Part shown: positions 31,507 through 63,276 of the stretch, one piece after another
Layout of the letters: each line of letters starts with the position of its first letter
Numbering within the stretch: position 1 is the stretch's first letter
Source: Nocardia fluminea
GTDB taxonomy: Bacteria; Actinomycetota; Actinomycetes; Mycobacteriales; Mycobacteriaceae
DNA: 64,000 nt
Direction of reading: 5' to 3'
Assembly: GCF_002846365.1 (NCBI RefSeq)
Contig: NZ_PJMW01000002.1
Span: forward strand, 4,464,001-4,528,000
Position numbers and translations under genes: made by a program
Notes under the pieces: model-generated
Database searches by the model: none
Told to the model about the DNA's origin: nothing
What the model saw: the letters and a program-made list of their open reading frames with translations, nothing else

Positions 31507-31511
31507 GTCGA

Positions 31512-39819: not shown

Positions 39820-41400
39820 GTGACGATTTCCCTTGCACCCCCGGCGCTCGCCAGGGACGACAACTCCATCTACCGTGCGCTGTCGGAATTGGACAAGCCG
39901 GTGTTCGTGGTCCGTGACGATCGCGGTGTCGCGGTGACCACCGACGCAGGCGCCGCTCGCGGTGCGCGAGTGCTGGCAGCGGCTCCCGCGCTGCGGCCGG
40001 AAACGCTGGGCAACAACGAGTTCCGGCAGACCCACGGCGTGAACTTCGCCTACCACGCCGGTGCGATGGCCAACGGGATCGCCTCGGCCGCGATGGTGGT
40101 CGCGATGGCGCGCACCGGTTTGCTCGCCTCGTTCGGCGCCGCCGGTGTGCTGCCGGCCCGGATCGACGAGGCGCTGGCCACGATCGCGCGTGAGGCGCCG
40201 GGAAAGCCCTTCGCCTGCAACCTGATCCACAGCCCGAGTGAGAACGCGCTGGAGCGGGCGATCGTCGATGCCTGCCTGCGCCACGAGGTGCGCTGTGTGG
40301 AGGCGTCGGCCTTCCTGGACCTGACCCCGCAGGTGGTGCGCTACCGGCTGGCGGGCCTGCATCGTGACCCGAACGGTCAGGTGATCGCCCGGAACCGGGT
40401 GATCGCCAAGGTATCTCGCGCCGAGGTCGCCGAACTGTTCCTGCGCCCGGCGCCGGAGCACCTGGTGCGCGGGCTGCTCGACGCGGGGGAGATCACCGCC
40501 GAGCAGGCGCAGCTGGCGGCATCGGTCCCGATGGCCGACGACATCACCGGGGAAGCGGACTCCGGTGGTCACACCGACCGCCGTCCGCTCGTGGTGCTGT
40601 TGCCGTCGCTGCTGGCGGTGCGCGAGCGGATCCAGCGCGAATACGGTTTCGCGCAGCGGGTCCGGGTGGGGGCGGCCGGTGGTATCGGCACCCCGGCGGC
40701 CGCCGCGGCCGCCTTCGCGATGGGTGCCTCCTACGTGGTCACCGGGTCGGTCAATCAGGCCACTGTCGAGGCGGCGCAGTCCGAGACGGCGAAGCGGCTG
40801 CTCGCCGCGGCGGGCGTCGCCGACACCACCATGGCGCCCTCCTCGGACATGTTCGAACTCGGCGTCGACGTGCAGGTGCTCCAACGCGGCACGATGTTCG
40901 CGAGCCGGGCGCGGCGGCTCTACGACACCTATCGGCGCTACGACGGTATCGCGGCGATCCCCGCCGCCGAACGCGCCGAGATCGAGCAGCGGATCCTGGC
41001 TCGCTCCTTCGACGAGGTGTGGAACGACTGCCTCGGCTACTTCCGTGAGCGTGACCCCGAGCAGATCGAGCGCGCCGAGGGGAACCCGAAACGCCGGATG
41101 GCACTGATCTTCCGGTGGTATCTGGGCCGGTCCTCCGGCTGGAGCACGGCCGCGACACCCGACCGGACCCTCGACTATCAGATCTGGTGCGGGCCCGCGA
41201 TGGGCGCGTTCAACGACTGGGTCGCCGGCACCTATCTGGCCGCCCCGGCGAACCGCCACGTCGCCGAGGTCGGGTTGCAGATCATGCACGGTGCGGCGTT
41301 CGCCACCCGCGTGAGCCAGTTGCGCGCGGCGGGCGTGCGGCTGCCGGGCCGCTGCTCGACCTATGTTCCTGCCCCGCTCACCAGCATCGAGTCACGATGA
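39820..41400 (+). CDS. pfaD: PfaD-family FMN-dependent enoyl reductase
   Basis: The 526-aa enzyme matches PfaD, the trans-acting enoyl reductase of polyunsaturated-fatty-acid synthases. Features include GVNFAYHAGAMANGIASAAM, LLASFGAAGVLP, NLIHSPSENALERAIVDACL, the FMN phosphate-binding RVGAAGGIGTPAAAAAAFAM and the typical C-terminal QIWCGPAMGAFNDWVAGTYL. It reduces enoyl-ACP intermediates held on the PfaA-like synthase. GTG 39820 is preferred because AGAAGG precedes it by nine bases. Its stop overlaps the first possible ATG of the ligase gene. The small repeats just upstream may control it. Confidence 0.9.
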   Translation: MTISLAPPALARDDNSIYRALSELDKPVFVVRDDRGVAVTTDAGAARGARVLAAAPALRPETLGNNEFRQTHGVNFAYHAGAMANGIASAAMVVAMARTGLLASFGAAGVLPARIDEALATIAREAPGKPFACNLIHSPSENALERAIVDACLRHEVRCVEASAFLDLTPQVVRYRLAGLHRDPNGQVIARNRVIAKVSRAEVAELFLRPAPEHLVRGLLDAGEITAEQAQLAASVPMADDITGEADSGGHTDRRPLVVLLPSLLAVRERIQREYGFAQRVRVGAAGGIGTPAAAAAAFAMGASYVVTGSVNQATVEAAQSETAKRLLAAAGVADTTMAPSSDMFELGVDVQVLQRGTMFASRARRLYDTYRRYDGIAAIPAAERAEIEQRILARSFDEVWNDCLGYFRERDPEQIERAEGNPKRRMALIFRWYLGRSSGWSTAATPDRTLDYQIWCGPAMGAFNDWVAGTYLAAPANRHVAEVGLQIMHGAAFATRVSQLRAAGVRLPGRCSTYVPAPLTSIESR

Positions 41401-43253
41401 GTAGCGCGGTGCAGGGAGGTAGCGCCGTGCAAAATGACAGCGCCGTGCAAAATGACAGCGCCGTGCAAGATGGCAGCGCCGTGCGGGGACCGCGGGTCGC
41501 GCAGGAATACAGTGTCGCGCCACTGGTCACGATGGCCGATGACGACAACTTGGCCAATGTGGTGTTCCGCAAGGCAGCGGCTGATCCGTCGGCCGTGGTG
41601 TTCAGCCGTAAGACGGTCGAGGGCTGGCTCGACGTCGACTACGACGAGTTCGCGCGACTCGTTCTCGGACTCGCGAAAGGCTTGTTGGCCAACGAGATAA
41701 GCGTAGGCGATCGGGTGCTGATCCTCGGCGGAACCAGTTTCGAGTGGTCGGCGGCGGATTTCGCCGTGCTGAGCGTCGGCGCGGTCGCGGTGCCGGTGTA
41801 TCCGACGTCGTCGGCCGAGCAGATCCAGCACATCGTGGCCGATGCAGGCCCCAGCGCGTGTTTCGTGGAGACGGCCGAACAGTGCGACCTGATCGGTGCG
41901 GCCGCGGGGGAGGATCTGCGCGGCCGGGCTTGGCTGCTCGGTTCGTCGTCGCCGGCGCTGATCGAGCAGGGCGAAGCGATCGCCGACGCCGAGGCCACCG
42001 AGCGTCGGCTGGCGGTACGCGCCGACGATGTGGCGACGATCGTCTACACCAGCGGCACGACGGGCGTCCCCAAGGGCTGCCTGCTCACGCACCGCAACAT
42101 CTACTCGGCGGCGGCGAACGTGGTCGAACTTCTCGACACCGTATTCCGGCGCACCCCCGCCGATCCCGCGTCGACGCTGCTGTTCCTCCCGCTCGCGCAC
42201 GTGTACGGGCGGGTCGTGCAGTTCGGCTGCGTGCTGGCGGGGGTCCGCACCGGTCTGGTCGCGACGCCCGCGCAACTGCCCGCCGAACTGCCGATCTTCC
42301 GGCCGACGTTCCTGATCGGCGTGCCGTACGTCCTGGAAAAGATCCGTAAGGCAGCACGTCAGGCGCTCGGCAGGGATCGGTACGACGCCGCGGAGACCGC
42401 GGCGATCGCCCTCGGCCACGCGCGCAGGCGCGGGCAGCAGCCTCCGGCGAGCGCGGTGATCGACGGGGAGATCGGCGAGCAGTGGCGGGGGATGCTGGGC
42501 GGGCGGCTCGAGCACATGGTCGCGGGTGGGGCGTCGCTGGAACCGTCGACGGCGGACTTCTTCACCGGAATCGGTGTGGAGATCATCGGCGCGTACGGCC
42601 TGACCGAGGCGTCGTCGACGGTCAGTATGAGTGCGCCGCACGCCAATCGGGCGGGTGCGGTCGGGCGGCCCGTGCCCGGCACGACCGTCGCGATCGCCGA
42701 CGACGGCGAGATCCTGGTCCGCGGCCCGCAGGTCTTCCCCGGGTACTGGCCCGACGGTGGCCATGCGGCCGAGAACTGGCTGGCCACCGGCGATCTCGGC
42801 CGGCTCGACGAGGACGGATTCCTGTTCATCACCGGCCGGGCCAAGGAGATCATCGTCACCAGCGGCGGCAAGAACGTGGCGCCCGCGCCGCTCGAGGACC
42901 GGGTTCGCCTGCACGCCTTGGTGAGCAATTGCATGCTCGTCGGCGAAGGGCGACCGTATGTGACCGCCTTGATCACCGTCGATCCGGTGGTGCTGGCTCG
43001 CTGGGCCGCGCAGCGGGGAGTGGACGTATCCACCGGGGTCCCGACCGAGGACGCCCGGTTGCTCGCGGAGATCTCCGCCGGGGTCGAGGCGGCGAACCGG
43101 CTCGTCTCCCGCGCGGAGTCGATTCGCCGGTTCGCCGTTCTCGCGGAGGACTTCTCGATGGAGAAGGGTCACCTGACGGCGTCGTTGCGGCTGCGTCGCG
43201 CGGCGATCGAAGCCGACTTCGGCCCCGTCATCGCCACGCTGTATCCGGACTAG
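41397..43253 (+). CDS. Long-chain acyl-CoA synthetase (AMP-forming)
   Basis: From ATG 41397 the product is 618 aa. It belongs to the long-chain FadD/FAA1-like class of ANL ligases: YTSGTTGVPKGCLLTHRN, the linker motif FLPLAHVYGR, IGAYGLTEASS, and a C-terminal RAKEIIVTSGGKNVAP. It activates long-chain fatty acids. The first 30 codons are five 18-base tandem repeats encoding SAVQxx. A consensus ribosome site (GGGAGGT) lies inside the first repeat, seven bases before GTG 41427, which may be the real start; the catalytic part begins near VAPLVTMADDDN. Its 3' end overlaps the convergent thioesterase gene by four bases. Confidence 0.85.
   Translation: MSSAVQGGSAVQNDSAVQNDSAVQDGSAVRGPRVAQEYSVAPLVTMADDDNLANVVFRKAAADPSAVVFSRKTVEGWLDVDYDEFARLVLGLAKGLLANEISVGDRVLILGGTSFEWSAADFAVLSVGAVAVPVYPTSSAEQIQHIVADAGPSACFVETAEQCDLIGAAAGEDLRGRAWLLGSSSPALIEQGEAIADAEATERRLAVRADDVATIVYTSGTTGVPKGCLLTHRNIYSAAANVVELLDTVFRRTPADPASTLLFLPLAHVYGRVVQFGCVLAGVRTGLVATPAQLPAELPIFRPTFLIGVPYVLEKIRKAARQALGRDRYDAAETAAIALGHARRRGQQPPASAVIDGEIGEQWRGMLGGRLEHMVAGGASLEPSTADFFTGIGVEIIGAYGLTEASSTVSMSAPHANRAGAVGRPVPGTTVAIADDGEILVRGPQVFPGYWPDGGHAAENWLATGDLGRLDEDGFLFITGRAKEIIVTSGGKNVAPAPLEDRVRLHALVSNCMLVGEGRPYVTALITVDPVVLARWAAQRGVDVSTGVPTEDARLLAEISAGVEAANRLVSRAESIRRFAVLAEDFSMEKGHLTASLRLRRAAIEADFGPVIATLYPD
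41403..41492 (+). repeat. Five 18-bp tandem repeats at the start of the ligase gene
   Basis: The units are 41403-41420, 41421-41438, 41439-41456, 41457-41474 and 41475-41492. The second and third are identical (AGCGCCGTGCAAAATGAC) and the others differ in a few bases. All are in frame and each contains a GTG that could initiate translation. Copy number change would keep the frame. Confidence 0.85.
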
Positions 43254-43780
43254 GCCGCGCCGAGCCAGCAGAAGTACTCGAGGTCGACCTTCGCGAGCAA
43301 GGCGCCGCTGTCATCGTGCAGCAGCGCCTTTCCGGTGAGATCGAACTGCTCCTCGGTCCCGCGCCCGACCACGTCGGCCAGGATCGGGGAGCTCACCGTG
43401 CCGCTGGCGCGGACACGGCCGCGCGCGGGCCGGAAGAAGGTGGCCCTGGTGCCGCGCAGCACGAAGGTCCGCACGTGCAGGATGCGCGGGGCGATGACAC
43501 CGGAGAACGCTCCGGCACAGGCGACTTCGGCGGCGAGGAACAGCGCGCCCGCGTGCACCGTACCCAGGTGATTGCTCATCGCCGGTGTCTCGGGGATCTC
43601 GGCTACCGCCGAGCCGGGTCCCAGCTCGGTCATGCGCACGCCCACCAGATTCACGAACGGGACGAGCGTGTCGACGGTCTTGCGGATCTGTTCGTAGTCC
43701 GGGGTCGCGGCACCGGTCATATTCGTCAGCCGAGCCTGCGCTGCGGCGATTCTGGGTGCCGGTTCATTTCCAGTTGGCAT
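43250..43780 (-). CDS. Hotdog-fold thioesterase, DUF4442/PaaI-like (second copy)
   Basis: The 176-aa paralogue of the protein at 38205-38726 shares AEIPETPAMSNHLGTVHAGA, the following LFLAAEVACAGAFSG and KVDLEYFCWL. The Asn-His and Thr-Val-His residues of the hotdog active-site helix are retained. It is transcribed toward the ligase gene and away from the flavoprotein gene, sharing an intergenic region with a strong palindrome. The likely role is cleaving acyl thioesters of the pathway. Confidence 0.75.
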   Translation of the reverse strand: MPTGNEPAPRIAAAQARLTNMTGAATPDYEQIRKTVDTLVPFVNLVGVRMTELGPGSAVAEIPETPAMSNHLGTVHAGALFLAAEVACAGAFSGVIAPRILHVRTFVLRGTRATFFRPARGRVRASGTVSSPILADVVGRGTEEQFDLTGKALLHDDSGALLAKVDLEYFCWLGAA

Positions 43781-43994: not shown

Positions 43995-45197
43995 ATGTAT
44001 GACGCGATTGTTGTCGGCGCGCGGTGCGCGGGTTCACCGGTCGGCATGTTGCTGGCGAGGCAGGGGCATCGAGTCCTGGTGGTGGACCGGGCCACCTTTC
44101 CCAGCGACACCGTCTCGACGCACTACATTCAGCAGCGTGGGCTGGCGAGGCTGGCCCAGTGGGGCCTGCTCGACAAGCTGATCGCCACCGGTGTGCCGGC
44201 GATCAAGCGCATGACGGTGTCCTACCTCGACATCGTCATCGCGGGGTTCGCCGATCCCATCCAGGGCATCGACGCCACCTACGCGCCGCGGCGCACCGAA
44301 CTCGACACGATCCTGGTCGAGGGCGCGAAGGAAGCAGGCGCCGAAGTTCGCACCGGCTACACCGTCAGCGAGCTGATCATCGAAGACGGCGTGGTCGTCG
44401 GTATTCGCGGTTCGGTCGCCGGCGGTGAGATCGCCGAGGAGCGAGCCCGCATCGTGATCGGCGCGGACGGCACCAACTCGTTCGTCGCCAACGCTGTCGG
44501 CGCCGAGACCTACACGAAGGTCGCGGCCGAGTGCTTCATCTACTACAGCTACTTCAGCGGCCTGTCGCAGACCGAGTTCCACAGCCGCATCGGCGACAAG
44601 CAGCAGATCGGCATCTGGCCGACCCACAACGACCAGACCCTCGTCGCGGTCATGCGCAAGATCGACACCTACTCCGATTTCCGCGCCGACGTCGAGGCCA
44701 ACTTCGTGAAGGTCGCGCGCGAGATCCTGCCCGAGTTCGCCGAGGAACTGGTCACCAAGGGCAAGCGTGAGGACCGTTTCTACCCGATGCGGTATCCCGA
44801 CAACTACCGCCGCCAGTCGCACGGCGCGGGCTGGGCCCTGGTCGGGGACGCGGGCTACCACAAGGACCCTTTCACCGGACTCGGGATCTCCGACGCGTTC
44901 GACTACGCGGCACTGCTCGCCGAGAGGGTGCACGAGGGGCTGACCGAACAGCGGCCGATGGCCGAGGCGCTCGCCGATTACCAGCGCGAGCGCGACGAGA
45001 AATCTCAGTCGGGATTCGAATTCACCTGCACGATCTCCACGCTCGAACTGACTCCGCAATTGCTGGCTGTTTTCCGTGCGCTGGAGAACAACGAAGAATA
45101 TGCCAAGGACTTCTTCGCGATGGTCGGCGGCGGAATGACCGGCGAGGAATTCTTCGCGCCGGAACGTATCGCGAAATTGCTCGGTGCCAACGTATGA
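43995..45197 (+). CDS. FAD-dependent oxidoreductase, geranylgeranyl-reductase/PHBH-like (second copy)
   Basis: The 400-aa flavoprotein is paralogous to that at 26931-28154: VVGARCAGSPVGMLLARQGH, TYAPRRTELDTILVEG and GDAGYHKDPFTGLGISDAF. The ATG follows GAGGAG by seven bases. The family includes lipid double-bond reductases, flavin hydroxylases and halogenases; the lysine-based halogenase signature is not evident. It opens the operon that continues with the SGNH hydrolase and the PfaA-like synthase, so it probably acts on the growing or finished chain. Confidence 0.8.
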   Translation: MYDAIVVGARCAGSPVGMLLARQGHRVLVVDRATFPSDTVSTHYIQQRGLARLAQWGLLDKLIATGVPAIKRMTVSYLDIVIAGFADPIQGIDATYAPRRTELDTILVEGAKEAGAEVRTGYTVSELIIEDGVVVGIRGSVAGGEIAEERARIVIGADGTNSFVANAVGAETYTKVAAECFIYYSYFSGLSQTEFHSRIGDKQQIGIWPTHNDQTLVAVMRKIDTYSDFRADVEANFVKVAREILPEFAEELVTKGKREDRFYPMRYPDNYRRQSHGAGWALVGDAGYHKDPFTGLGISDAFDYAALLAERVHEGLTEQRPMAEALADYQRERDEKSQSGFEFTCTISTLELTPQLLAVFRALENNEEYAKDFFAMVGGGMTGEEFFAPERIAKLLGANV

Positions 45198-45795
45198 GCT
45201 GATGGTGCTCGGCGACAGTTTCGCGGAGGGGCGCGGCGGTTCGGTCAACGCCGACGGCTCCTTCGCGGGATTTGTCGCGCGCGTCGAGCACCTGCTCGGA
45301 ATCTCCGGCGCGACACTGAACCTCGGTTCCTACGGGGCCACCACGCAGGATGTCATCGACCGGCAGCTGCCGGTCGCCCTCGCCGCCGATGCTCCGCTGG
45401 TCGGCGTGATCGTCGGCGGAAACGACCTGGTCACCGACTACGACCCGGATCGCTTCCGCCGCAACCTCCGTCAGATCTATGCCGGGCTGGCGCGTCCCGA
45501 TCGGCTGGTGTTCACCACGAACTGGCCGAATATCCCGGACCGCCTGCCCGGTCTGCCCGAATCCGTGCGCACGGTGTTGCGCTCGCGATTCGTGCGCGCC
45601 AACGACTATCTCGACGACCTCGTCCACGAGTTCGATCTCGTGCGACTCGATTTGGTGAACGCACCCATCACCGCGGACCCGGTCATGTGGTCCCCGGACG
45701 GCATGCATCCGAGTCCGGCGGGCCATCAGCTCATCGGCACGGCGATGGCCGACCTCATCGACGAGGTCCGGACTGTGCGAGTTTCGCAACTCTGA
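45184..45795 (+). CDS. SGNH/GDSL-type esterase or thioesterase
   Basis: The 203-aa product has block I GDSFAEG (Ser12), block III GGND (78-81) and block V DGMHP with Asp172 and His175, the complete SGNH catalytic set. It starts at GTG 45184, 14 bases inside the flavoprotein gene, and ends 23 bases before the PfaA-like ATG. There is no signal peptide, so it works in the cytoplasm. Because the synthase has no terminal thioesterase, this protein is a candidate for chain release (inference). Confidence 0.8.
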   Translation: MPTYELMVLGDSFAEGRGGSVNADGSFAGFVARVEHLLGISGATLNLGSYGATTQDVIDRQLPVALAADAPLVGVIVGGNDLVTDYDPDRFRRNLRQIYAGLARPDRLVFTTNWPNIPDRLPGLPESVRTVLRSRFVRANDYLDDLVHEFDLVRLDLVNAPITADPVMWSPDGMHPSPAGHQLIGTAMADLIDEVRTVRVSQL

Positions 45796-45818: not shown

Positions 45819-48800
45819 ATGAACGACCACCTTCGGCACTCCGAAGACCCGGCCATGACGCGGCGACTGGCCGACAATCCGATCGCGATCGTCGGCCTGA
45901 GCGGACTGTTCCCGATGGCCGCCAACTTCCGTGACTTCTGGCAGAACGTGGTCGACGCCGCGGACTGCATGTCCGACGTGCCCGCCACCCACTGGAACCT
46001 CGACGACTACTACGATGCCGACCCCACGGCGCCCGACAAGACCTATTGCCGCCGTGGCGGTTTCGTGCCCGAGATGCCGTTCAGCGTCACCGAGTTCGGG
46101 CTGCCGCCCAACCAGCTCGAGGTCACCACGGTCGTGCAGCTGCTGAGCCTGCTCGTCGCCCGTGACGTGCTCGCCGACGCGGGAGCTGTCGGGTCCGACT
46201 GGTACCGGCCCGAGCGCACCGGTGTGGTCCTCGGCGTCGCCGGGCCGACCACGTTGTCGCATCCGCTGGCCGCCCGCTTGTCGACGCCGGTCCTCAAAGA
46301 GGTCATCCGCAGCTGCGGGCTGACGCAGGCCGACGCCGAGCAGATCGCGCAGAAGTACGCGGACGCCTTCCCGTCGTGGGAGGAGAACTCGTTTCCCGGT
46401 CTGCTGGGCAATGTGATCGCGGGCCGGGTCGCCAACCGGCTCGACCTCGGCGGTATGAACTGCACCGTCGACGCGGCGTGCGCGAGTTCGCTGTCGGCGG
46501 TGCACGTCGCGATCAGCGAGCTGGTGTCGGGTCGCGCCGACATGATGATCACCGGTGGCTGTGACACCGAGAACTCGATCTTCGGTTACCTGTGCTTCAG
46601 CAAGGTGGGGGCCCTGTCGCGCTCGGGTGTCATCAAGCCGCTCGACGACAGTGCCGACGGCACCCTGGTCGGCGAGGGCATCGGCATGATCGCCCTCAAA
46701 CGCCTCGCCGACGCCGAGCGCGACGGTGACCGGGTGTACGCGGTGATCAAGGGCATCGGCTCGTCGAGCGACGGGCGCTTCAAGAGCATCTACGCCCCGC
46801 GTGCCGAGGGCCAGCAGGCCGCCCTGCACCGCGCCTACGAGGACGCGGACTGCTCGCCCGCCACGATCGGGCTGTTCGAGGCGCACGCCACCGGCACCCG
46901 CGTCGGCGATCAGACCGAGCTCGCCGCGCTGAACGCGGTGCTGCGCGCGGCCACCGACGAGACCGGGTACGCCGCGATCGGCAGCGTGAAATCCCAGATC
47001 GGGCACACCAAGGGCGCCGCCGGCGCGGCCAGCCTGATCAAGCTGGCGCTGGCGTTGCACCACAAGGTGCTGCCGCCGACGATCAATGTCACCGCGCCGA
47101 ACAAGGCGCTCGACGACTCCTCGCCGCTCTACATCAACACCAGGACCCGGCCGTGGATTCGTGATCCGCACCGGCCGCAGCGCCGCGCGGCGGCATCGGC
47201 GATGGGCTTCGGCGGCACCAACTTTCACGCGATCCTCGAGGAAGCAGGCGACGATCGCGGACATGCGCTCACGATGCACCGCACCGCTCGGGTCCACCTG
47301 TGGCACGCCGCTTCGAGGGCCGAACTGGCGAGGTTGCTGAGCTCGGACGCCGCCCCGAACGGTGACGCCGGGATTCCGGCCGAGCATGCGCGCGTCGGGT
47401 TCGTGGCGCGCGACGACGAGGAAGCGTCGGCACTGCGCGCACTGGCGGTGACCGAACTCGCCGGTGACGCCGACGAGTGGACTCATCCGCGCGGCATCGT
47501 CTTCCGCCGGCGTGCCATGCCCGATCTGAAGATCGGCGCGCTGTTCGCCGGTCAGGGCAGCCAGTACGTGGACATGGGCCTGGCCGCGGTGCTGAACAAC
47601 CCCACCGTCGCGACCGCCTTCGACGAGGCCAACGCGGTGTTCGCCGACGCGGCCCGGCCGCCGGCCTCGGTGGTGTTCCCGGCGCCGGTGTTCGACCCCG
47701 AGTTGCGCAACGCCCAGGAGGCGACGTTGCGGCGCACCGAGTTCGCGCAGCCCGCGATCGCGGCGCTGTCGGTGGGCCAGTACCGGTTCCTGTCCGAGCG
47801 CGGCCTGTCCTGCGAAGGGTTCATGGGCCACAGCTTCGGCGAGCTGACCGCACTGTGGGCGGTGGGCTCGCTCGACGCCGTCGACTACTTCACCCTCGCC
47901 AGGGCACGCGGCGCGGCGATGGCGATCGGCACCGACGCCGACGCGGGCACGATGGCGGCGGTACAGGCCGACCGTGAGCAGGTCAACGCGATCCTCGCCG
48001 GCCATCCCGACGTGAGCGTGTGCAACCACAACGCACCCGACCAGGTGGTGGTCGGTGGTGGCACCGCGGCTGTCGCGGAATTCGTCGCGGCGGGCCGGGC
48101 ACAGGGGCTGACCGTGCGTGAGTTGCCGGTGGCGGGTGCATTCCATACCCGCTACGTCGCCCACGCGGTCGAGCCGTTCAAGGCCGCGGTGAAGAACGTC
48201 GCCGTTCGCGCCCCCAAGGCCAAGATCTACGCGAATTCCCGGGACGCCGAATACGGTGCGCGGGTCGCGACCAACCGTCGCGTGCTCACCGAGCAGCTGC
48301 TCGAAACCGTCGAGTTCGTGGCGGGTCTGCGGGCCATGCGGGCCGACGGCTGCAACGTCTTCGTCGAGTTCGGCCCGAAGGGCACGCTCACCTCGCTCGT
48401 GCGCCGGACTCTCGGCGCCGACGTGATCGCCTTGTCCACCGATCAGGGCCCGACCGGCGACAGCGATGTGGCGCTCAAGAAGGCGGCGCTGCACCTGGCG
48501 GTGCTCGGTGCGCCGATCGTCGACATCCACCGCCACGACGCCGCACCGTTCGCGGTGCCGGAGGCGCCCGGCATGGTGGTGCGGCTCAACGGCCGCGATT
48601 TCGTGCCGGAATCCCGTAAGGAGCTCTACCGCAAGGGAATCGAGGAACAGGTCGTGTTGGAAGCTGTCACGCAGGCGCGAGAGGCCGCCGAAGCCGATGC
48701 CGCGGCACAGGCGCAGGTGGTCGCCCGGGAGCATGCCGCCGAGCAGGAGCGAGTCGCCGCCGAGGCACACACCGCCGCACAGGCCGAGGTCGCGCGAACG

Positions 48801-52790: not shown

Positions 52791-52819
52791 GCATCGCCGA
52801 TGTGAGGAATGGAGATCCG

Positions 52820-55039: not shown

Positions 55040-56270
55040 GACGCAAGTGCATCCGGTGACGGACGCCGACACCGGGCCGTCGTCCATCCGGTGGCTGCCG
55101 ATCCTGGTGCTCGCCCTCGGCGCGTTCTGCGCGGGAACCGACAACTATCTCGTCGCCGGCGTACTGGCACCGATGGCGGCGGATCTGCGGGTGTCCGTCG
55201 CCGGTGCCGGACTGTTCGTCACCGGCTACTCGCTGGCCTACGCCCTCGCCGCACCGGTGGTGGTCACCGTGCTGCGGGTGCGCTCGCCACGGCGACTGCT
55301 GCTGGCCGCGATCGCGCTGTTCGCCGTCGTCAATCTGCTCGCCGCGGTGGCCTGGTCACCGTGGGTGATGGCAGCCGCTCGCATCGCGGCCGGGTGCGTC
55401 GCCGGAATCTACGTACCGCTGGCCGGCGCGGCGGCGGCCGGGATGGCCACGGCGGATCGTCGAGGACGGGCGCTGGCGGTCATCCTGGGCGGCATCTCGA
55501 TCGCCACGGTGGCCGGTGTGCCGCTGGGGGTGTGGGTCGCCGGATTGTCGTCGTGGCGGATGGCGTTCGTCGTCGTCGCCGTGGTGGCGCTGCTCACCAC
55601 CGCCGGTGTGGCGCTGACGGTTCCGTCGGGCGACACCACGCCCGTGGTGTCGCCGCGGCAGCGACTCGCACCCTTGCGGCACCCACCGGTGTGGCTGGGG
55701 CTCGCGGTGACGATCTCGGGCATGACCGCGGGATTGATGATCTTCACCTATGTGGGCCCGATCTACGCCGAGGTCCCGGCGGTGGGAGCGGGTTACGTCG
55801 GCGCGCTGATCATGGCGCACGGCGTCGGGGCGATGTTCGGCCTGTGGGGCGGCAGTGTGCTGGTCGACCGGTTCGGCGCCAGGCCGGTCCTGCTCGGAGC
55901 GCTGACGATCTTCACCGCGAACCTGGCCTGGCAGCCGATCGCCGCGCACACCCTGGCGACCACCCTCGCGTTCGTCACGGTGTGGGGCGTGGTCGGCTGG
56001 GCCTTCCTGCCCGCGCAGCAGCACAGCATGATCGCCGGCGCCGCCCCAGAGCAGGCACCGATGTTGTTGTCGCTCAACGGTTCGGCGATGTATCTCGGGG
56101 CCGCACTCGGCTCGGCGATCGGTGGAGCCGTCATCGCGGTCTTCGGAGCCGATCACCTCTGGATGTTCGCCACCGGTTTCGGCGCGATCAGTGTCGCGCT
56201 GTCGCTGGTCCGTCATAAACAATTCCGATCCGGCGATCGGCGATTGTCACACGCCGTCGCCGACCGCTGA
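55017..56270 (+). CDS. MFS transporter (AraJ/DHA1-like)
   Basis: The 417-aa protein has twelve predicted helices, NYLVAGVLAPMAADLRVSVA in the first helix region (typical of the drug:H+ antiporter-1 group) and ADRRGRALAVILGG in the loop-2/3 position. ATG 55017 has GGAG eight bases upstream and lies 23 bases inside the dehydratase gene, so it is translationally coupled to the synthase. It probably exports the pathway product or protects against it. Confidence 0.85.
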   Translation: MPTPNPGETQVHPVTDADTGPSSIRWLPILVLALGAFCAGTDNYLVAGVLAPMAADLRVSVAGAGLFVTGYSLAYALAAPVVVTVLRVRSPRRLLLAAIALFAVVNLLAAVAWSPWVMAAARIAAGCVAGIYVPLAGAAAAGMATADRRGRALAVILGGISIATVAGVPLGVWVAGLSSWRMAFVVVAVVALLTTAGVALTVPSGDTTPVVSPRQRLAPLRHPPVWLGLAVTISGMTAGLMIFTYVGPIYAEVPAVGAGYVGALIMAHGVGAMFGLWGGSVLVDRFGARPVLLGALTIFTANLAWQPIAAHTLATTLAFVTVWGVVGWAFLPAQQHSMIAGAAPEQAPMLLSLNGSAMYLGAALGSAIGGAVIAVFGADHLWMFATGFGAISVALSLVRHKQFRSGDRRLSHAVADR

Positions 56271-56330
56271 AACATGGTTACGGTAATACTGTCGCGCCCG
56301 GTTTCGCTACCGCTGAGGTGAATTGGACAA

Positions 56331-57248
56331 ATGAATCCCGATCCGCGCAGAAAAACGATCAGTAGTCCCTATATTCATCGACTGCAACGACGTCACTTCC
56401 TCCTGTTCGACATTCTCCCGATCATCGGTACCGTCGTAGCTTTCGCCTTCTTGCTGGTCCGGCCCTTCGGTGTGCTGGAATTAGCTCTGCTGTTCGGGAT
56501 GTGGCTGCTCACCGGACTCGGTGTCACCGTCGGTTATCACCGGCTGTTCACCCACCGCACGTTCAAGGCGGCGCCGTGGGTGACGTGGGTGCTCGCGATC
56601 CTCGGTTCGATGGCGGGCCAGGGCCCGGTCATCTCCTGGGTGGCGCTGCACCGGCGCCACCACGAGTACAGCGACCGCGAAGGCGATCCGCACTCACCCA
56701 ACCTCGCCGGTGACGGCCTGCGCGGCGCCCTGCGCGGCCTGGCCCACTCGCATTTCCTGTGGATGCGCCGTCACGAGTATCCGAACGTGGTGCACTACGC
56801 ACCCGATCTGATCAAGGACCGCAACCTCGTCCGCATCGCCCGCCTCTACTACTACTGGGTGGCGCTCGGGCTGCTGATCCCGGCCGTGATCGGCGGCCTG
56901 GTCTCGATGAGCTGGACCGGCGCGGTCGCCGGCCTGTTCTGGGGCGGGCTGGTGCGCATCTTCGTGCTCGAGCACATCGTGTGGGCGATCAATTCGTTCC
57001 TGCACATGTTCGGCACCCGTCGCTACGAATCCCGCGAGAACAGCCATAACGGTGGCGTCTTCGCCCTGGCGACGCTGGGGGAGTCGTGGCACAACAATCA
57101 CCACGCGTTTCCCGAGTCGCCCTCTTTCGGGTTGGACTGGTATCGGCTCGACCCCGGTTTCTGGCTCATCCGGACACTGGCTTTCTGTGGTCTCGCCTGG
57201 GACCTGAAAATGCCCTCCGCCGAACGCATGGCAGCCAAGCGAATCTAA
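56331..57248 (+). CDS. Membrane-bound fatty-acyl desaturase
   Basis: The 305-aa di-iron desaturase has the three histidine boxes: HRLFTH (70-75), HRRHH (107-111) and HNNHH (254-258). Four to five hydrophobic segments are placed as in Delta9 acyl-CoA/acyl-lipid desaturases. It introduces a cis double bond using oxygen and electrons from a reductase; the PDR-type reductase at 26006 or a host ferredoxin could supply them. It is separated from the MFS gene by 60 bases and followed after 12 bases by an ACP, so an ACP-bound substrate is plausible. Confidence 0.9.
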   Translation: MNPDPRRKTISSPYIHRLQRRHFLLFDILPIIGTVVAFAFLLVRPFGVLELALLFGMWLLTGLGVTVGYHRLFTHRTFKAAPWVTWVLAILGSMAGQGPVISWVALHRRHHEYSDREGDPHSPNLAGDGLRGALRGLAHSHFLWMRRHEYPNVVHYAPDLIKDRNLVRIARLYYYWVALGLLIPAVIGGLVSMSWTGAVAGLFWGGLVRIFVLEHIVWAINSFLHMFGTRRYESRENSHNGGVFALATLGESWHNNHHAFPESPSFGLDWYRLDPGFWLIRTLAFCGLAWDLKMPSAERMAAKRI

Positions 57249-57260
57249 GGAATTCTCACC

Positions 57261-57518
57261 GTGGATACGAGTAAAGAAGCCATTGTCACCTGGTGCCAGG
57301 AATACCTCGCGGGTCTGCTCGAGGTACCGGCCGCCACCATTGATCCGGCCACCGATTTCGACCACCTCGGCATCGACTCGGCCCTCGCCGTGGCGCTGCT
57401 GATCGAGGTCGAGGACCGCTACGGCGTCGATCTGGCGCCCGAGGACCTGTTCGACAACCCGAACCTCGATGCCGTCGCCGCCTACCTGCACGAGCAGAGC
57501 CGGCGGAGCGTGGGGTAG
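57261..57518 (+). CDS. Stand-alone acyl carrier protein
   Basis: The 85-aa ACP has the phosphopantetheine site DHLGIDSAL (Ser40), differing from the LGVDSIKR carriers of the synthase. It sits between the desaturase and the methyltransferase, two bases before the latter. It is the natural acceptor of the acyl-AMP made by the downstream FAAL and would present that chain to the tailoring enzymes. Confidence 0.9.
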   Translation: MDTSKEAIVTWCQEYLAGLLEVPAATIDPATDFDHLGIDSALAVALLIEVEDRYGVDLAPEDLFDNPNLDAVAAYLHEQSRRSVG

Positions 57519-57520
57519 CG

Positions 57521-58414
57521 ATGTCGGTGCATATCGAGCGGTCCGTCGCGGCCGCAGCAGCGATCCGTCATCATTACGACGCGGGCAACGACTTCTATCG
57601 CCTCTGGCTCGACGAGTCGCTGTCCTACTCCTGCGCCCTGCGCGAGAACCCCGACGACACAATGGAACTCGCCCAGGACCGCAAACTGCGTTACCACCTG
57701 GACGCGATCGACGCCGAGCACGCCGCCGCCGTCCTCGATATCGGTTGCGGGTGGGGCGCGATCCTCGAACGCGCGGCCGGCGCCGGGGTGGCCAGGTCCG
57801 TCGGACTGACACTGAGTCCCCAACAGGCCGAGTTCGTCCGCTCGCGCGCCTGCCCCGGCGTCGAGGTGCGGACCGAGAACTGGCTGCACTACGAGCCGGA
57901 CACCCGATTCGACGGCATCATCTCGATCGGCGCTTTCGAACACTTCGCGACCCCCGACGATTCGCCGGCCGAGAAGATCGGTGTGTACCGGGACTTCTTC
58001 ACCCGGTGCCGCGACTGGCTCGAGCCGGACGGCGCGCTGTCGCTGCAGACCATCGCCTACGCGAACATGTCTCGCGACCAGGCCAGCGCGTTCATGCAGC
58101 AGGAGATCTTCCCCGACGCCGACCTGCCGACCCTGGCCGAGATCACGGCCGCGGCCGAGGGCCTGTTCGAGGTGCGCTCGATCAGCAACGGGCGCCTCGA
58201 CTACGCCTGGACGTGTGAACAGTGGGCGCGCAGGCTGCGCGCGAACCGCGCCGAAGCCGTCGAGCTCGTCGGCGCCGATGTGGTCGCCCGCTACGAGCGC
58301 TATCTGAAGCTGTCGGCGCTCGGCTTCCGGATGGGCAAGATCGGCCTGCTGCGGCTGGTGCTGGTGCCCTACCGCACCGGATTCTTCACTCCGCGTCGCG
58401 GGCGGCCGGCATGA
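57521..58414 (+). CDS. Cyclopropane-fatty-acid-synthase-type SAM methyltransferase
   Basis: The 297-aa enzyme resembles mycolic-acid cyclopropane synthases (about 290 aa). Features are HHYDAGNDFYRLWLDESLSY followed by SCAL, the SAM-binding VLDIGCGWG (71-79), GIISIGAFEHF and a C-terminal PYRTGFFTP. The family adds a methylene or methyl to a cis double bond of a lipid chain using S-adenosylmethionine. Placement directly after desaturase and ACP suggests that the double bond made by the desaturase is its target. The sequence overlaps the next ATG. Confidence 0.9.
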   Translation: MSVHIERSVAAAAAIRHHYDAGNDFYRLWLDESLSYSCALRENPDDTMELAQDRKLRYHLDAIDAEHAAAVLDIGCGWGAILERAAGAGVARSVGLTLSPQQAEFVRSRACPGVEVRTENWLHYEPDTRFDGIISIGAFEHFATPDDSPAEKIGVYRDFFTRCRDWLEPDGALSLQTIAYANMSRDQASAFMQQEIFPDADLPTLAEITAAAEGLFEVRSISNGRLDYAWTCEQWARRLRANRAEAVELVGADVVARYERYLKLSALGFRMGKIGLLRLVLVPYRTGFFTPRRGRPA

Positions 58415-59670
58415 CCACGCACCCGCCCGAACCCGTCGCGCCGGCCAGGACCCGGGTTCGCTTCAACCCGTTCAGCGCCGAATTCCGGGACGACCCGTAC
58501 CCGCTCTACCAGCAGCTGCGTGAGGCCGAACCGGTCCACCGGACGCTCGGCATGTGGGTGCTCACCCGGCACGCCGACGTGCGTGGCGTGTTGCACGATC
58601 GCTCGTTCAGCGCCGGACTGATTCCCAGTCTGGTGAGCAGGCAGGCCGAGCGGCTCGGACACTGCAGCGTCGCGCAGATCGAACGTCTCGGCCGTAAGTC
58701 GCTGGTGTTCACCGACAATCCCGATCACGCGCGGTTGCGCGGACTGGTGAACCGGGTGTTCACCGCCCGATCGGTGGAATCGCTGCGACCGCTGGTGACC
58801 CGGGTCGCCGGGGAGCTGATGGAGCGAGCCTGGCGCGACGGTGGCCTCGACGTCATCGCCGACCTCGCCGCGCCACTGCCGGTGGCCGTGCTGTGCGTGT
58901 GGATGGATCTGCCCGAGGAGCTGCGCGACCGGGTCGGGCCGTGGACCCACGACATCCGATTCCTGCTCGAACCCGGGATGATGAAGGCCGGGGACTTCGA
59001 GCGGGTCTGCGCGGTGGTCGAGGAGTTCGCCGCCGCCATCGACGCCGTGTTGCCCGAGCGGCGAGCCCGGCCGGGCACCGATCTGATCAGTCAGTTGCTC
59101 GCCGCGCGGACGGCGGGCGGGGACGTGCTGTCCGACGAGGAGCTGGTGTTCGTCTGCATCATGTGTTTCGTCGCGGGCAACGAGACCACCAAATCGCTGA
59201 TCGGTAACGGAACGTTGGCCCTGTTGCGGCACCCCGAGCAGGCCGCGCTGTTGCGCCGGGGACCGGAGTCGGTCGAGGCGGCGGTCACCGAGGCGCTGCG
59301 CTACGACCCTCCGCTGCAGTTGACCAAGCGCCTGGCCACCCGTGACATCCAGCTCGGCGGTGCCCGGATCTCGGCGGGCGAGCAGATCCTGGTGTGTCTG
59401 GGCGCGGCCAACCGCGACCCCGCCGTGTTCGCCGCGCCCGACGAGTTCGACCTGTCCCGCACCGGCGGTGGACATCTGGGCTTCGGCCACGGTATGCACG
59501 GGTGCCTCGGCGGGCTGCTCGCCGAACTACAGGCACAGGTCGCCTTCGAGTACCTGTTCGTCCGTTCGCGAGACCTGGCACCACGGCCGGTGGAACTCGA
59601 GTGGCAGGACCACAGTTTCATCGTGCGCGGCCTGAAGAGCCTTCCCGTCGTCGTGCGGCGGGCACGATGA
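58411..59670 (+). CDS. Cytochrome P450
   Basis: The 419-aa P450 has the I-helix AGNETT (Asn where His or Asp is usual), the K-helix EALRYDPP and heme loop [10 protein letters not shown] with Cys365. ATG 58411 overlaps the methyltransferase stop. It is more distant from the other two P450s of the locus than they are from each other. A role in hydroxylating or epoxidising the carrier-bound or free acyl chain is inferred from position. Confidence 0.9.
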
Positions 59671-60404
59671 CGGGCACCGGTGTGGTCAAATCGTGGTTGC
59701 GCGGTGACACCGCGCCCGCGGCGGTGCGACTGGTGTGTATCCCGCACGCAGGCGCCGGGGCATCGTCGTTCAATCGGTGGCCGGACCTGTTCGGTCCGGG
59801 GATCGGGGTGGTGCGCGTCCAGCTCCCCGGCCGTGAGGACGTCGCGCAGCAGCCGCCGCTACACCGCGTGGGCGAGGCGGTCGATGAATTAGCCTGTCAG
59901 ATAACACAATCGGACGAGCCGTCGATGGCGATCTACGGTCACAGCATGGGGGCGCTGATCGCCTATGAACTCGCTCGCGCGCTGACTCTCGCGGGTCGGC
60001 CACCGGTCCACCTGTTCGTCTCCGGGCGCCGCGCACCGCACCTGGCGGCGAGTCGCGCGGTTCTGCATCGCCTGCCCGACAACGACTTCGCCGAGGCGCT
60101 GGCCGCGATGGGAGCGTGGGGCGCGGCGGGCCGCAGCGCGAGCTTCCTGCGCTACGCGCTGCCGCTGACGCGGGCGGATCTGGAGTTGTCGGAGGAGTAC
60201 AGTCACCGCCCGCGACCCAGGCTCACCTGCCCGATCACGACGTTCTACGGCACCGAGGACCCGATCGCCGACCCGGAGGAAGTGTGGGCGTGGGGCGCAC
60301 TGACCGACGGCCCGTTCGCCACGCACGAGTTCACCGGTGATCACCTGTTCCACCATCGACATCGCGCGGCTGTGGCGGCGATCATGACCGCCGCCCTGAC
60401 CTGA
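59667..60404 (+). CDS. Type II thioesterase
   Basis: The 245-aa protein of the GrsT/RifR class has [20 protein letters not shown] (nucleophile Ser93), [11 protein letters not shown] (Asp) and GDHLFHH (His). Type II thioesterases clear wrongly loaded carrier domains in polyketide and peptide assembly, and occasionally release products. Its ATG overlaps the P450 stop. Confidence 0.9.
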
Positions 60405-60412
60405 GGACCGAC

Positions 60413-62071
60413 GTGCAGCTCTTTCCCGACATTCTCGCGCGTCGCGCTCTCGACGAGCCGGACCGCATCGCCTACATCTTCCTCGACGACAACGGTGCCG
60501 AACACACCACCACGACCTATCGCGAGCTCCACGACGCAGCGATGGCGGTGGCGGGACTGCTGCGCTCACGGTGTGAACCGGGCGACCGTGCCCTACTGGT
60601 CTTCCCGCAGTGCGTCGAGTTCATCACTGCCTATTTCGGTTGTCTCTACGCGAATATCGTTGCCGTGCCCGTGAATCCGCCGCGGCGCGGCAAGGTCCAG
60701 GACGCGACCCGCGCCATCGTCGCCGATTGCGCCCCCACCGCCGTGCTGACGATCGGCGCGGTGCTCGAGCCCCTGCGGTCGGTGCTCGAGCCGCTCTGTA
60801 CCGCACAGCAGTGGCTGGCCGTCGACGAGTTGCCCACGACGGAGACCGATTTCGCGCCGGCGGCCGCCGATCCGGATTCCGTGGCGTTCCTGCAGTACAC
60901 CTCCGGGTCGACCTCCGCGCCCAAAGGGGTGATGGTGACGCATCGAAACCTCGTGGCCAACGAGGAGATGATCCGGCACAGTTTCGGCCACGACCGCGAG
61001 TCGACCGTCGTCGGCTGGGCGCCGTTCTTCCACGATCAGGGCCTGATCGGGAATGTGCTGCAACCGGTGTACGTCGGCGCGAGCTGTATCCAGATGTCGC
61101 CGACCACCTTCATCCGGCGACCCCTGCGATGGCTCGAGGCCATCTCGCGCTATCGCGCGCACACCAGCGGCGGCCCGAACTTCGCCTTCGACGCCTGTGT
61201 CGCCCGTGCGGCGGCCGGCGAACTGCCCGATCTGGACCTGAGTTCCTGGAAGGTCGCGTTCAACGGTGCCGAGCCGATCCGGGCCGAAACTCTCGACAGA
61301 TTCGCGAAAACTTTTGCCCCGCTGGGGTTCAGCGCCCAGGCGGTGTTCCCGTGCTACGGGCTCGCGGAAGCCACCTTGCTGGTGTCGGCGAGCGGGAAGG
61401 GACGTGGCCCTCGATTGCTGGACGCCGACATCGACGCACTCGCCGATCGACGCTACGTCGCCGCCGCGGTGAACCGGGGTCGCACGCTGGTCGGTTCGGG
61501 AGCGGTACTGCCGGGTGAGGCGCTGCGCATCGTCGACCCGGAGACCGGCGGGCTCTGCCCGCCGGATCGGGCAGGCGAGATCTGGGTGGCGGGTGACCAT
61601 GTCGCCCAGGGCTATCGGGGCCTGCCCGAGGCCACCACCGCGACCTTCCACGCCCGCATCGGCGACGACACCGAGCACACCTACCTGCGCACGGGCGACC
61701 TCGGCCTGGTCGTCGACGACGAACTGTATGTGGTGGGCCGGCTCAAGGACATGATCATCATCCGCGGCCGCAACTACTACCCGCACGACATCGAGCACAC
61801 CGTGGCGCGCGCGCACCCGGCGCTGCGAGCAGGCAGTGGCGCCGCGTTCGCGGTGCCGGGACGCGACGGCGACAAGCTGGTCGTCGTCCAGGAACTCCAG
61901 CGCGACGCCGACGTCGACTCCGACGACATCGTGGGTGCCATCCGGGCGGCGGTGACACAGGAGCACGAACTCGCCTTGGCGGACGTGGTGCTCGCGGCGC
62001 CGGGCACGGTGCAGAAGACCAGCAGCGGAAAGATCATGCGAGCAGCGGCGAGAAAGCGATACCTGCAATGA
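60413..62071 (+). CDS. Fatty-acyl-AMP ligase (FAAL, FadD32-like)
   Basis: The 552-aa ligase has the ATP motif YTSGSTSAPKG (162-172), the FAAL-type context WAPFFHDQGLIGNVLQPVYV, FPCYGLAEATLLVS and the C-terminal RLKDMIIIRGRNYYPHDIEH. FAALs make acyl-adenylates and load them onto an ACP, not CoA. The ACP at 57261 or the PfaA carriers are likely acceptors. GTG 60413 is 8 bases after the thioesterase stop; the gene overlaps the last P450. Confidence 0.9.
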   Translation: MQLFPDILARRALDEPDRIAYIFLDDNGAEHTTTTYRELHDAAMAVAGLLRSRCEPGDRALLVFPQCVEFITAYFGCLYANIVAVPVNPPRRGKVQDATRAIVADCAPTAVLTIGAVLEPLRSVLEPLCTAQQWLAVDELPTTETDFAPAAADPDSVAFLQYTSGSTSAPKGVMVTHRNLVANEEMIRHSFGHDRESTVVGWAPFFHDQGLIGNVLQPVYVGASCIQMSPTTFIRRPLRWLEAISRYRAHTSGGPNFAFDACVARAAAGELPDLDLSSWKVAFNGAEPIRAETLDRFAKTFAPLGFSAQAVFPCYGLAEATLLVSASGKGRGPRLLDADIDALADRRYVAAAVNRGRTLVGSGAVLPGEALRIVDPETGGLCPPDRAGEIWVAGDHVAQGYRGLPEATTATFHARIGDDTEHTYLRTGDLGLVVDDELYVVGRLKDMIIIRGRNYYPHDIEHTVARAHPALRAGSGAAFAVPGRDGDKLVVVQELQRDADVDSDDIVGAIRAAVTQEHELALADVVLAAPGTVQKTSSGKIMRAAARKRYLQ

Positions 62072-63276
62072 GCACCGAGACCTTCGTCTTCGATCCCACC
62101 ACACCGGGATTCGCCGAGGACCCCTATCCGCACTACGCCCAACTGCGCGCCGCGGGACCCGCGCAGCGACATCCGCTCGGATTCTGGATCATCTCCCGGC
62201 ACGCCGATGTGGCCGCGCTGCAGCGCTCGCCGCACTCCGTCGACGAGCAGCACCTGCGTCATCTGCCTGCGTGGAAGAGCGGCAGCACCGAGGTCCGCAA
62301 GGAGAGCCGGGTGATGGGCGGGCTGTCGATGCTGGACCAGGACCCGCCCGACCACACCCGGCTGCGACGGCTGGTGTCGAAGGCTTTCACGCCTCGGTCG
62401 ATCGAGTCGTTGCAACCGCGCGTCGAGGAACTCGTCGAGGAGGCACTGGCCCGCATCGCGGCGGCCGGCACCGCGGATGTCATTGCCGAACTGGCCTTTC
62501 CGCTGCCGTTCACCATCATCTCGGAGATGCTCGGCATCCCGGTCGGCGAGCACACCCGGCTGCGGGAACTGACCGAGACCGTCGTGCTGGTGTTCGAGCC
62601 GTTCGCGAGCGCCGAGACCCAGGACCGGATCAGGGCCGCCAACCAGGAACTGTTCGGCATGGTCCGTGAACTGATCCGCTGGAAGCGCGCCAACCCGGGC
62701 GACGATCTGCTCACCGCGTTGATCAGCGCCGAGGACAACGGTGACATGCTCAGCGAGGACGAACTGATCTCGCAGGTGATGTTCCTCTACATCGCCGGCC
62801 ACGAGACCACGGTGACCCACCTCGGCAGCGGAATCCTGTCGCTGCTGCGGCATCCGGACCAGGCGCGGCGGCTGCGGGCCGAGCCCGGCCTGGCCGCGGG
62901 CGCGGTCGACGAACTGATGCGCTTCGACACCCCGGTGCACCTCATGCGCCGGATCACCCTCGCACCGCTGCGGGTCGGCGAGCACGAGATCCCGGCGGGC
63001 AGCTGGGTGATCGGCGCACTGGCCGCCGCCAACCGGGACCCGGAATTCTGGGGCGCCGACGCCGGCGAACTGCGCCTGGACCGGCCGAACGCGCACCAGA
63101 ACGTCTCGCTCGGCGCCGGCATCCACCACTGCCTCGGTGCCGCCCTGGTCCGGATGGAGGCACGGATCGTGTTCCCGCGCTTCGTGACCCGCTTCCCCGA
63201 GGCCGCGGTGGTCGGCCAGACCTGGAACGGCCGGATCAACCTGCGCGGCCTCGCGACATTGACGGTCGCGGTGTAG
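62068..63276 (+). CDS. Cytochrome P450
   Basis: The 402-aa P450 has I-helix AGHETT, DELMRFDTPVHL in the K-helix region and heme loop LGAGIHHCLG with Cys355 (Leu in place of the first Phe). DHTRLRRLVSKAFTPRSIES shows kinship with the P450 at 35601. ATG 62068 overlaps the FAAL stop. It is the last plus-strand gene of the locus in view. Confidence 0.9.
   Translation: MSTETFVFDPTTPGFAEDPYPHYAQLRAAGPAQRHPLGFWIISRHADVAALQRSPHSVDEQHLRHLPAWKSGSTEVRKESRVMGGLSMLDQDPPDHTRLRRLVSKAFTPRSIESLQPRVEELVEEALARIAAAGTADVIAELAFPLPFTIISEMLGIPVGEHTRLRELTETVVLVFEPFASAETQDRIRAANQELFGMVRELIRWKRANPGDDLLTALISAEDNGDMLSEDELISQVMFLYIAGHETTVTHLGSGILSLLRHPDQARRLRAEPGLAAGAVDELMRFDTPVHLMRRITLAPLRVGEHEIPAGSWVIGALAAANRDPEFWGADAGELRLDRPNAHQNVSLGAGIHHCLGAALVRMEARIVFPRFVTRFPEAAVVGQTWNGRINLRGLATLTVAV

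Follow-up and report, generated by a model that had tools for sequence, protein, structure and literature searches.

A Pfa-type lipid synthase and a FAAL-ACP-desaturase-methyltransferase cassette that occur together in Nocardia, seen from a locus of Nocardia fluminea

Known Pfa systems and the locus of Nocardia fluminea

Pfa-type synthases of actinobacteria were known from genomes by 2011, and the products of many of their types were uncharacterised (Shulse & Allen 2011, PMC3098273; here and below, papers are cited from extracts of their texts). Among the types described there, type J is composed of PfaD and PfaA only, and a PfaC with KS-CLF-DH-DH architecture is not found in every type. A pfaA-type polyketide synthase (PKS) of Nocardia was known by 2014 (cluster #11, PMC4035055), for which a polyunsaturated fatty acid was predicted and not found. 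A missing CLF or KS-CLF has likewise been reported for clusters that combine Pfa with nonribosomal peptide synthetase (NRPS) and PKS genes (PMC13291983, PMC12964715). Here we analysed a stretch of 64,000 nucleotides from Nocardia fluminea (contig NZ_PJMW01000002.1, positions 4,464,001 to 4,528,000, from a genome of 8.06 Mb in 4 contigs), which we call the window and in which a Pfa-type synthase is followed by a cassette of genes for a membrane fatty acyl desaturase (DES), an acyl carrier protein (ACP), a CMAS-family methyltransferase, cytochromes P450, a type II thioesterase (TE) and a fatty-acid-AMP ligase (FAAL). The distribution of the two modules among genomes indicates that they are very probably functionally linked.

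Like the actinobacterial Pfa secondary-lipid synthases (PMC3098273, PMC4035055), the locus contains PfaA and PfaD, here together with a PfaC; the extracts of these two accounts describe no FAAL-ACP-desaturase-methyltransferase-P450 partner, and the main text of PMC4035055 has 0 uses of 'desaturase' and 'AMP ligase'. It resembles the zeamine, fabclavine, megapolipeptin and dioxanopeptin/chitinimine clusters (PMC13291983, PMC12964715) in that a Pfa synthase is joined to assembly and tailoring genes. The surveys of such hybrid clusters required NRPS genes (one also PKS genes) near pfa, whereas no NRPS was seen at our locus, and their main texts do not name Nocardia. A Pfa-NRPS lipopeptide was rejected as a candidate product: no condensation domain was found in the scanned genes from 26 to 64 kb (three permease genes excepted), and no gene called between 63.3 and 83 kb, most of which were not domain-scanned, exceeds 706 aa. 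With JamABC and the bacterial polyyne clusters (PMC8406139, PMC11837247), some of which also contain a TE or a P450, the cassette shares FAAL, membrane desaturase and stand-alone ACP, but it differs from them in its one desaturase, its constant CMAS-family methyltransferase and its Pfa partner; the two further desaturases of polyyne clusters were not found, the scanned genes from 26 to 63 kb containing one desaturase. No description of the combination of Pfa and cassette was found in the literature searched (including extracts of PMC7413640 and PMC5550956), a search that did not reach most subscription papers or the curated libraries of biosynthetic gene clusters.

The genes of the two modules (calls of at least 60 aa) are as follows.

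39820..41400, + strand: PfaD (enoyl reductase); TIGR02814 650 bits, cut-off 449
41397..43253, + strand: acyl-CoA ligase (ACSb) of the Pfa core; Pfam AMP-binding, best NCBIfam match FadD11, below cut-off
43250..43720, - strand: DUF4442 / 4HBT thioesterase-like protein; Pfam
43995..45197, + strand: FAD oxidoreductase (FADox; geranylgeranyl-reductase / halogenase-like superfamily); Pfam FAD_binding_3, PDB relatives
45202..45795, + strand: GDSL/SGNH hydrolase; Pfam Lipase_GDSL_2, position kept in relatives
45819..52790, + strand: PfaA, KS-MAT-ACP3-KR-DH; TIGR02813 1707 bits, cut-off 1010, Pfam domains, translation
52787..55039, + strand: PfaC-like dehydratase protein, no KS-CLF; Pfam FabA, AlphaFold and Foldseek, PDB sequence search
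55056..56270, + strand: MFS exporter; Pfam MFS_1, in 3/3 near relatives and 0/36 other cassette-bearing Nocardia
56331..57248, + strand: DES; Pfam FA_desaturase, PDB acyl-CoA desaturases 4ymk and 4zyo
57261..57518, + strand: stand-alone ACP; Pfam PP-binding
57521..58414, + strand: CMAS-family S-adenosylmethionine (SAM) methyltransferase, C38/E140/Q176/Y228; Pfam CMAS, PF02353 210 bits, cut-off 27
58411..59670, + strand: cytochrome P450 a; Pfam p450
59667..60404, + strand: TE; Pfam Thioesterase
60413..62071, + strand: FAAL; NCBIfam FAAL models among best matches, all below curated cut-offs, PDB matches
62068..63276, + strand: cytochrome P450 b; Pfam p450

A preliminary description of the DNA had named PfaD, PfaA, PfaC and the cassette genes in 39820..63276, and their identity, order, strand and coordinates were all confirmed by Pfam, NCBIfam and PDB matches; its inventory left out the acyl-CoA ligase, the minus-strand DUF4442 gene, the FAD oxidoreductase and the GDSL hydrolase. 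The tight joining of genes that it reported holds in the window, where intergenic gaps from FADox to P450 b range from -4 to +60 bp (MFS gene start as called), and is confined to the window's clade, as is the MFS gene. Contiguity was accordingly dropped as sole proof of a single pathway. The minus-strand DUF4442 gene separates PfaD and the acyl-CoA ligase from the FADox-P450 b run, and scans for promoters and terminators in 52000-63600 gave no signal above shuffled sequences.

The Pfa core is an actinobacterial Pfa module by its domains, since both a PfaD-family protein and a PfaA with KS-MAT-tandem ACP-KR were found. Pfam assigned KS, AT, three ACP and KR domains to PfaA, together with a weak DH below its cut-off. 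The PfaC-like protein contains a single FabA domain by Pfam; no KS match was found in 52529-55039 by Pfam or structure comparison, leaving a dehydratase only, and its AlphaFold model (mean pLDDT 73, 141 residues below 50) resembles dehydratase/hot-dog folds in Foldseek. As this PfaC lacks KS-CLF-DH-DH, we classed the system as a Pfa-type synthase and not as a canonical EPA/DHA synthase. The reduced PfaC had been presented as a special feature, which the comparison of loci rejects: PfaC measures about 2,270-2,600 aa in untruncated Streptomyces-type loci and about 470-930 aa in those of Nocardia, Frankia, Amycolatopsis and Rhodococcus, and judged by these sequences the DH-only form is the usual one in this branch.

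By comparison with other actinobacterial Pfa clusters, the core belongs to a kind already known. Acyl-CoA ligase, FADox and GDSL hydrolase genes adjoin PfaA in Nocardia, Rhodococcus, Frankia, Amycolatopsis, Saccharopolyspora, Actinomycetospora and one Streptomyces, and do not lie beside it in three Streptomyces/Kitasatospora/Kutzneria loci, which belong to another Pfa type. PfaD comes first in the window type and after PfaC in most other loci. Among the best 80 loci of at least 568 relatives in a PfaC profile search, many cut by contig ends, DES was found in the fetched flanks of three (L006, L007, L028), and a fourth (L030) carries the FAAL-P450-CMAS end of the cassette. The GDSL hydrolase is a candidate chain-releasing enzyme. 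FADox was considered as a halogenase, as its four PDB matches are named so; WxWxIP, the halogenase motif, is absent from its translation, and it was kept as an FAD oxidoreductase. In three loci (L028 at 13488-17100, L030, L121), the genes after PfaD, judged by eye, would encode all parts of an acetyl-CoA carboxylase: carboxyltransferase, biotin carrier and biotin carboxylase.

Co-occurrence and probable partner exchange of the two modules

To evaluate the link between the modules, we compared their distribution in 150 Nocardia genomes. DES orthologues (at least 71% identity) were found in 40 of them, and CMAS orthologues (at least 67%) in exactly the same 40. PfaD was present in 77 genomes, above the family cut-off in 74. 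The results showed that 39 of the 40 cassette-bearing genomes contain PfaD, versus 38 of the 110 cassette-free ones (Fisher p 2.4e-13, phylogeny ignored). This asymmetry, with 38 genomes holding PfaD without the cassette and one holding the cassette without PfaD, agrees with a cassette that depends on Pfa. A class-wide sample of 394 genomes, which overlaps with the first in at least two (G000, G119), gave PfaD in 15/18 genomes with DES versus 31/376 without. All three class-wide misses hold a PfaA-type sequence, two above the family cut-off and one a contig-end fragment below it, so PfaD may be absent there through incomplete assembly. Three control genes were null against PfaD in the 150 genomes: LanC (13/24, p 0.83), a CMAS paralogue (16/29, p 0.68; 8/21 in genomes without the orthologue) and a DES paralogue (9/14, p 0.40; 4/9 in genomes without the orthologue).

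The two modules also tend to lie near each other. PfaD and cassette share a contig in 23 of 39 Nocardia genomes, and 20 of these pairs are 4-53.1 kb apart in genomes of about 6-10 Mb; in the other 16 the two are on different contigs and the distance is unreadable. Beyond Nocardia, they are adjacent in an Actinomycetospora (L028) and, in inverted order, in a Saccharopolyspora (L030). A spacing of 4-53 kb or more on the same contig makes a single mRNA unlikely as a general rule, and Pfa and cassette are probably modular, with tight contiguity a local feature.

Within the cassette itself, the order DES-ACP-CMAS-P450-(TE)-FAAL on one strand was found in 53 of the 58 loci examined, which is more than expected by chance. 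The 58 take in the window and two near relatives, and the 53 comprise the window, L028, 37/39 Nocardia loci and 14/16 loci of another family, presumably Pseudonocardiaceae, the family of L028 and L030. Of the five loci without a full cassette, L123, L196, L199 and L030 are cut by the contig or locus end and L150 has no FAAL. A gene read as a hot-dog thioesterase occurs in 32 of the 58 loci, an alpha/beta hydrolase in 28 and TE in 20. The neighbourhoods of 36 Nocardia beyond the nearest clade contain ACP (34), CMAS (35), P450 (35), FAAL (34) and a second P450 (18), and those of the 16 other-family genomes contain ACP (14), CMAS (15), P450 (15), FAAL (14) and TE (6). Two HxxHH boxes were found in 56/57 DES homologues. 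For the ligase at 60413..62071, 18 PDB matches, including 3pbk and the named fatty-acid-AMP ligases FadD23, FadD28 and FadD32, precede the first 4-coumarate-CoA ligase, and in sequence it resembles FAALs more than acyl-CoA ligases.

Two groups of loci carry further genes at the cassette. In the related genomes of L196 and L197, the cassette is preceded by a gene of the RPE65 family (carotenoid-oxygenase-like) and one for a Pfa-type FAD oxidoreductase, with a P450 between (in L197 at 11831-14795, minus strand; the RPE65 assignment is by Pfam on the L197 copy); this arrangement may point to an unsaturated substrate. Parts of a second FAAL cassette stand next to the first in L134, L136, L145, L146 and L147; in L136 and L145-L147 these include a soluble fatty acid desaturase (FA_desaturase_2 by a scan of L145) as well as an ACP and a CMAS-like methyltransferase, and in the five cluster members read this methyltransferase is without the Cys/Glu/Gln residues of the first cassette's enzyme.

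To compare the histories of the modules, we built a PfaD tree of 67 rows by a quick method, which includes 13 of the 38 PfaD-positive, DES-negative Nocardia. The window-type PfaD proteins of 7 Nocardia group together in one clade (SH-aLRT 100), with Amycolatopsis and Streptomyces himastatinicus as closest neighbours and support of 81-88 at those deeper forks. A second type, found in 4 Nocardia that carry the cassette, has Saccharopolyspora as its closest neighbour (support 88), and most of the remaining PfaD are nearest to Rhodococcus (support 99). The 13 DES-negative Nocardia fall into other Pfa types (7) and the main type (6). In a tree of concatenated cassette proteins (56 rows), the window type stands in two places and the second type in two, among the main type. 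The Mantel correlation between the PfaD and cassette trees was 0.32, reached in 0/2000 permutations, so the two trees are not wholly independent. These results suggest that the cassette was retained while its Pfa partner was swapped; in the reverse direction, the cassette may have passed from one Pfa carrier to another. One genome (G016, probably that of Nocardia arizonensis; L009, L073, L121) has two PfaD genes on different contigs, with the cassette 10 kb from one, and is represented in the PfaD tree by one of them, through the named locus, the second being left out.

Methyltransferase chemistry, a possible pathway and its rivals

The methyltransferase belongs to the CMAS fold family (PF02353), and its Cys38, Glu140, Gln176 and Tyr228 are invariant in 55/55 sequences, the window's included. 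Cys, Glu and Tyr stand at matching positions in the mycolic-acid cyclopropane synthases and CFA synthase (1kpi, 1kp9, 7qos), which share its fold family. Unlike these, the window enzyme and all compared homologues have Gln where His stands in the three solved cyclopropane synthases with readable alignments (of 10 listed), so the active-site His of that group is missing. This His presumably helps to bind bicarbonate in cyclopropane synthases. Given Gln in all 55 sequences, cyclopropanation is doubtful and should not be assumed. The preliminary description had proposed a hybrid pathway with a desaturated and methylated or cyclopropanated chain; of this, the shared function is supported by the co-occurrence counts, and the cyclopropane part became questionable. 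No description of the His-to-Gln change was found in the literature searched, which left most subscription papers outside its reach.

The same residues recur in a paralogous set, ACP-DES-FAAL-SDR-CMAS, found at modular type I PKS genes in Nocardia (L244-L246, L248-L250, L252, L255; adjoining them in the six genomes fetched, G031, G103, G092, G128, G063 and G029). Its DES and CMAS are about 39-50% identical to the window proteins; among eight CMAS matches, all 6 full-length copies have Cys, Glu, Gln and Tyr, and all 7 readable ones have Gln. This set thus resembles the window cassette in its enzyme kinds and in the four CMAS residues, and differs in its modular PKS partner and in that its DES and CMAS do not track PfaD. 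Three further loci (L155, L253, L254) hold DES paralogues without CMAS or PKS.

From co-occurrence and partner exchange, the genomic data support the view that the two modules serve one product. A possible pathway would start with the iterative synthesis of an unsaturated acyl chain from malonyl-CoA by the Pfa core, after which the GDSL hydrolase would free the chain and FAAL would reload it, as a free fatty acid, onto the ACP (57261-57518). On this carrier, DES would insert a double bond and the methyltransferase would add a SAM-derived methyl group; the P450s could oxidise the chain, TE would release it and, in the window's clade only, the MFS protein would export the product. The GDSL hydrolase (possible release), FAAL (which uses free acids) and TE are the parts that such a release-and-reload scheme requires. 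As a whole, the two-module chain from release and reloading to tailoring and export is a tentative proposal, a little short of an even chance. A more specific version is doubtful, though worth stating: the cassette was combined with at least three Pfa lineages and still depends on Pfa, and the Pfa chain is released, reloaded, desaturated and C-methylated to a methyl-branched or exo-methylene product, not a cyclopropane. If true, this would be a first among Pfa pathways: release of the chain, its reloading onto a separate ACP, and desaturation and C-methylation thereafter. A cassette that tracks Pfa also gives a handle on the product, as it predicts a double bond, a methyl group and a hydroxyl on the acyl chain, and a lipid comparison between the 40/150 Nocardia with the cassette and the 38 other PfaD carriers without it would test the link directly.

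Several observations weigh against this proposal or parts of it. The sequence gives no sign that FAAL accepts the Pfa product, and the single-contig genome G084 has DES-ACP-CMAS-P450 beside Pfa with no FAAL in the fetched 20 kb. TE occurs in just 9/36 of the more distant Nocardia neighbourhoods. One Nocardia (G003) carries the cassette but lacks PfaD, and none of its matches to PfaA exceeds 273 bits (cut-off 1010). Among the same-contig Nocardia pairs, 3/23 are 0.45-2.8 Mb apart, and in the other family both same-contig genomes (G186, G236) have the parts more than 250 kb apart. LanC was weakly negative against DES (2/24, p 0.025), which indicates that lineage effects exist in the Fisher tests. 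Finally, the paralogous cassettes adjoin modular PKSs, a setting that makes a starter-unit role likelier.

Such a role is the main rival for the window as well: the desaturated and methylated acyl-ACP of the cassette would prime PfaA or be extended by it, and the tailored part would become the tail end of the chain. The paralogous sets with their Cys/Glu/Gln/Tyr methyltransferases at modular PKSs in 6 Nocardia genomes argue for it, as do the PKS protein of L246, which opens with an ACP-like stretch before its KS, the orthologous cassette of L189, which comes after a same-strand PKS gene (two KS, DH, KR and ACP; no AT match), and a PKS-like gene one gene away from the cassette in L192 and L193. 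We nevertheless consider it unlikely, as Pfam finds no extra loading domain in PfaA, the TE of the window and the TE or by-eye hot-dog thioesterase of many copies point to release and not transfer, and the context of the paralogues is mixed, three DES paralogues being without CMAS or PKS. A different reading takes Pfa and cassette as the makers of two separate chains, joined in one complex lipid, for example as an ester, by enzymes partly encoded elsewhere. Both modules look self-contained, they lie tens of kb apart in many genomes, and extra hydrolases and acyl-CoA ligases surround them; the scanned genes of the region (three permease genes excepted) contain no dedicated acyltransferase, WS/DGAT or NRPS condensation domain, and this reading is improbable.

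That the modules act independently, as neighbours by chance or in a shared variable chromosome region, would agree with the cassette forming its own syntenic unit, sometimes far from Pfa, and with Fisher p-values that ignore phylogeny. It fits poorly with three controls that were null against PfaD in the same genomes, with 20/23 same-contig pairs within 53.1 kb and with partner exchange without loss of association, and we regard it as improbable. Least probable among the rivals is that the cassette, in the manner of JamABC, produces an acyl chain with a terminal alkyne or of polyyne-like form. FAAL, membrane desaturase and ACP do make up the JamABC set, and in extracts of PMC8406139 a P450 gene takes the place of TE and rubredoxin in the polyyne loci of 10 actinobacterial genomes, but the region has a single desaturase gene and the CMAS methyltransferase is a constant member. 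Release and reloading of the Pfa chain remains the reading that we prefer.

Genes around the two modules

The locus had been taken to start at 39820. We compared gene neighbourhoods of 3 near relatives and the 36 more distant cassette-bearing Nocardia (at least 40% identity, which admits paralogues; the stretches fetched favour genes near DES and PfaD), and found that the genes shared by them begin near 26.1 kb and extend to 64.0 kb of the window, with almost none beyond. Those upstream of PfaD are listed below, with matches among the 36.

26123..26938, + strand: 2Fe-2S ferredoxin/NAD reductase; Pfam Fer2 and NAD_binding_1, 10/36
26997..28154, + strand: second FAD oxidoreductase; Pfam FAD_binding_3, the family of 43995-45197, 14/36
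28151..29662, + strand: acyl-CoA ligase; Pfam AMP-binding, 2/3 nearest relatives and 0/36 others
30325..35563, - strand: ABC importer (ATPase, permeases, solute-binding protein); Pfam for ATPase and binding protein
35601..36824, - strand: third cytochrome P450; Pfam p450, 5/36
37197..38135, + strand: LysR regulator; Pfam HTH_1 and LysR_substrate, 12/36
38205..38726, + strand: DUF4442 / YiiD_C thioesterase-like protein; Pfam, 15/36
38723..39604, + strand: alpha/beta hydrolase; Pfam Abhydrolase_1, 15/36

The ferredoxin/NAD reductase is a candidate redox partner of the P450s or the desaturase. The 14 matches to the second FAD oxidoreductase may instead be to the FADox of the Pfa core. The ABC importer is a possible member of the pathway; its ATPase was matched in 16/36 neighbourhoods, one permease in 19/36 and the binding protein in 0/36. 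Downstream, a gene of metallo-beta-lactamase fold (Pfam) is a member of the shared neighbourhood. Directly upstream of the conserved genes, 22934-25401 of the window encodes a pair of AAA ATPase and DUF2201 VWA-like protein. At the start of the window, positions 1-4103 have a low GC content (51-58%) and contain a STAND NTPase gene (PF25199, 1917-4103), and this part is possibly a mobile or defence island.

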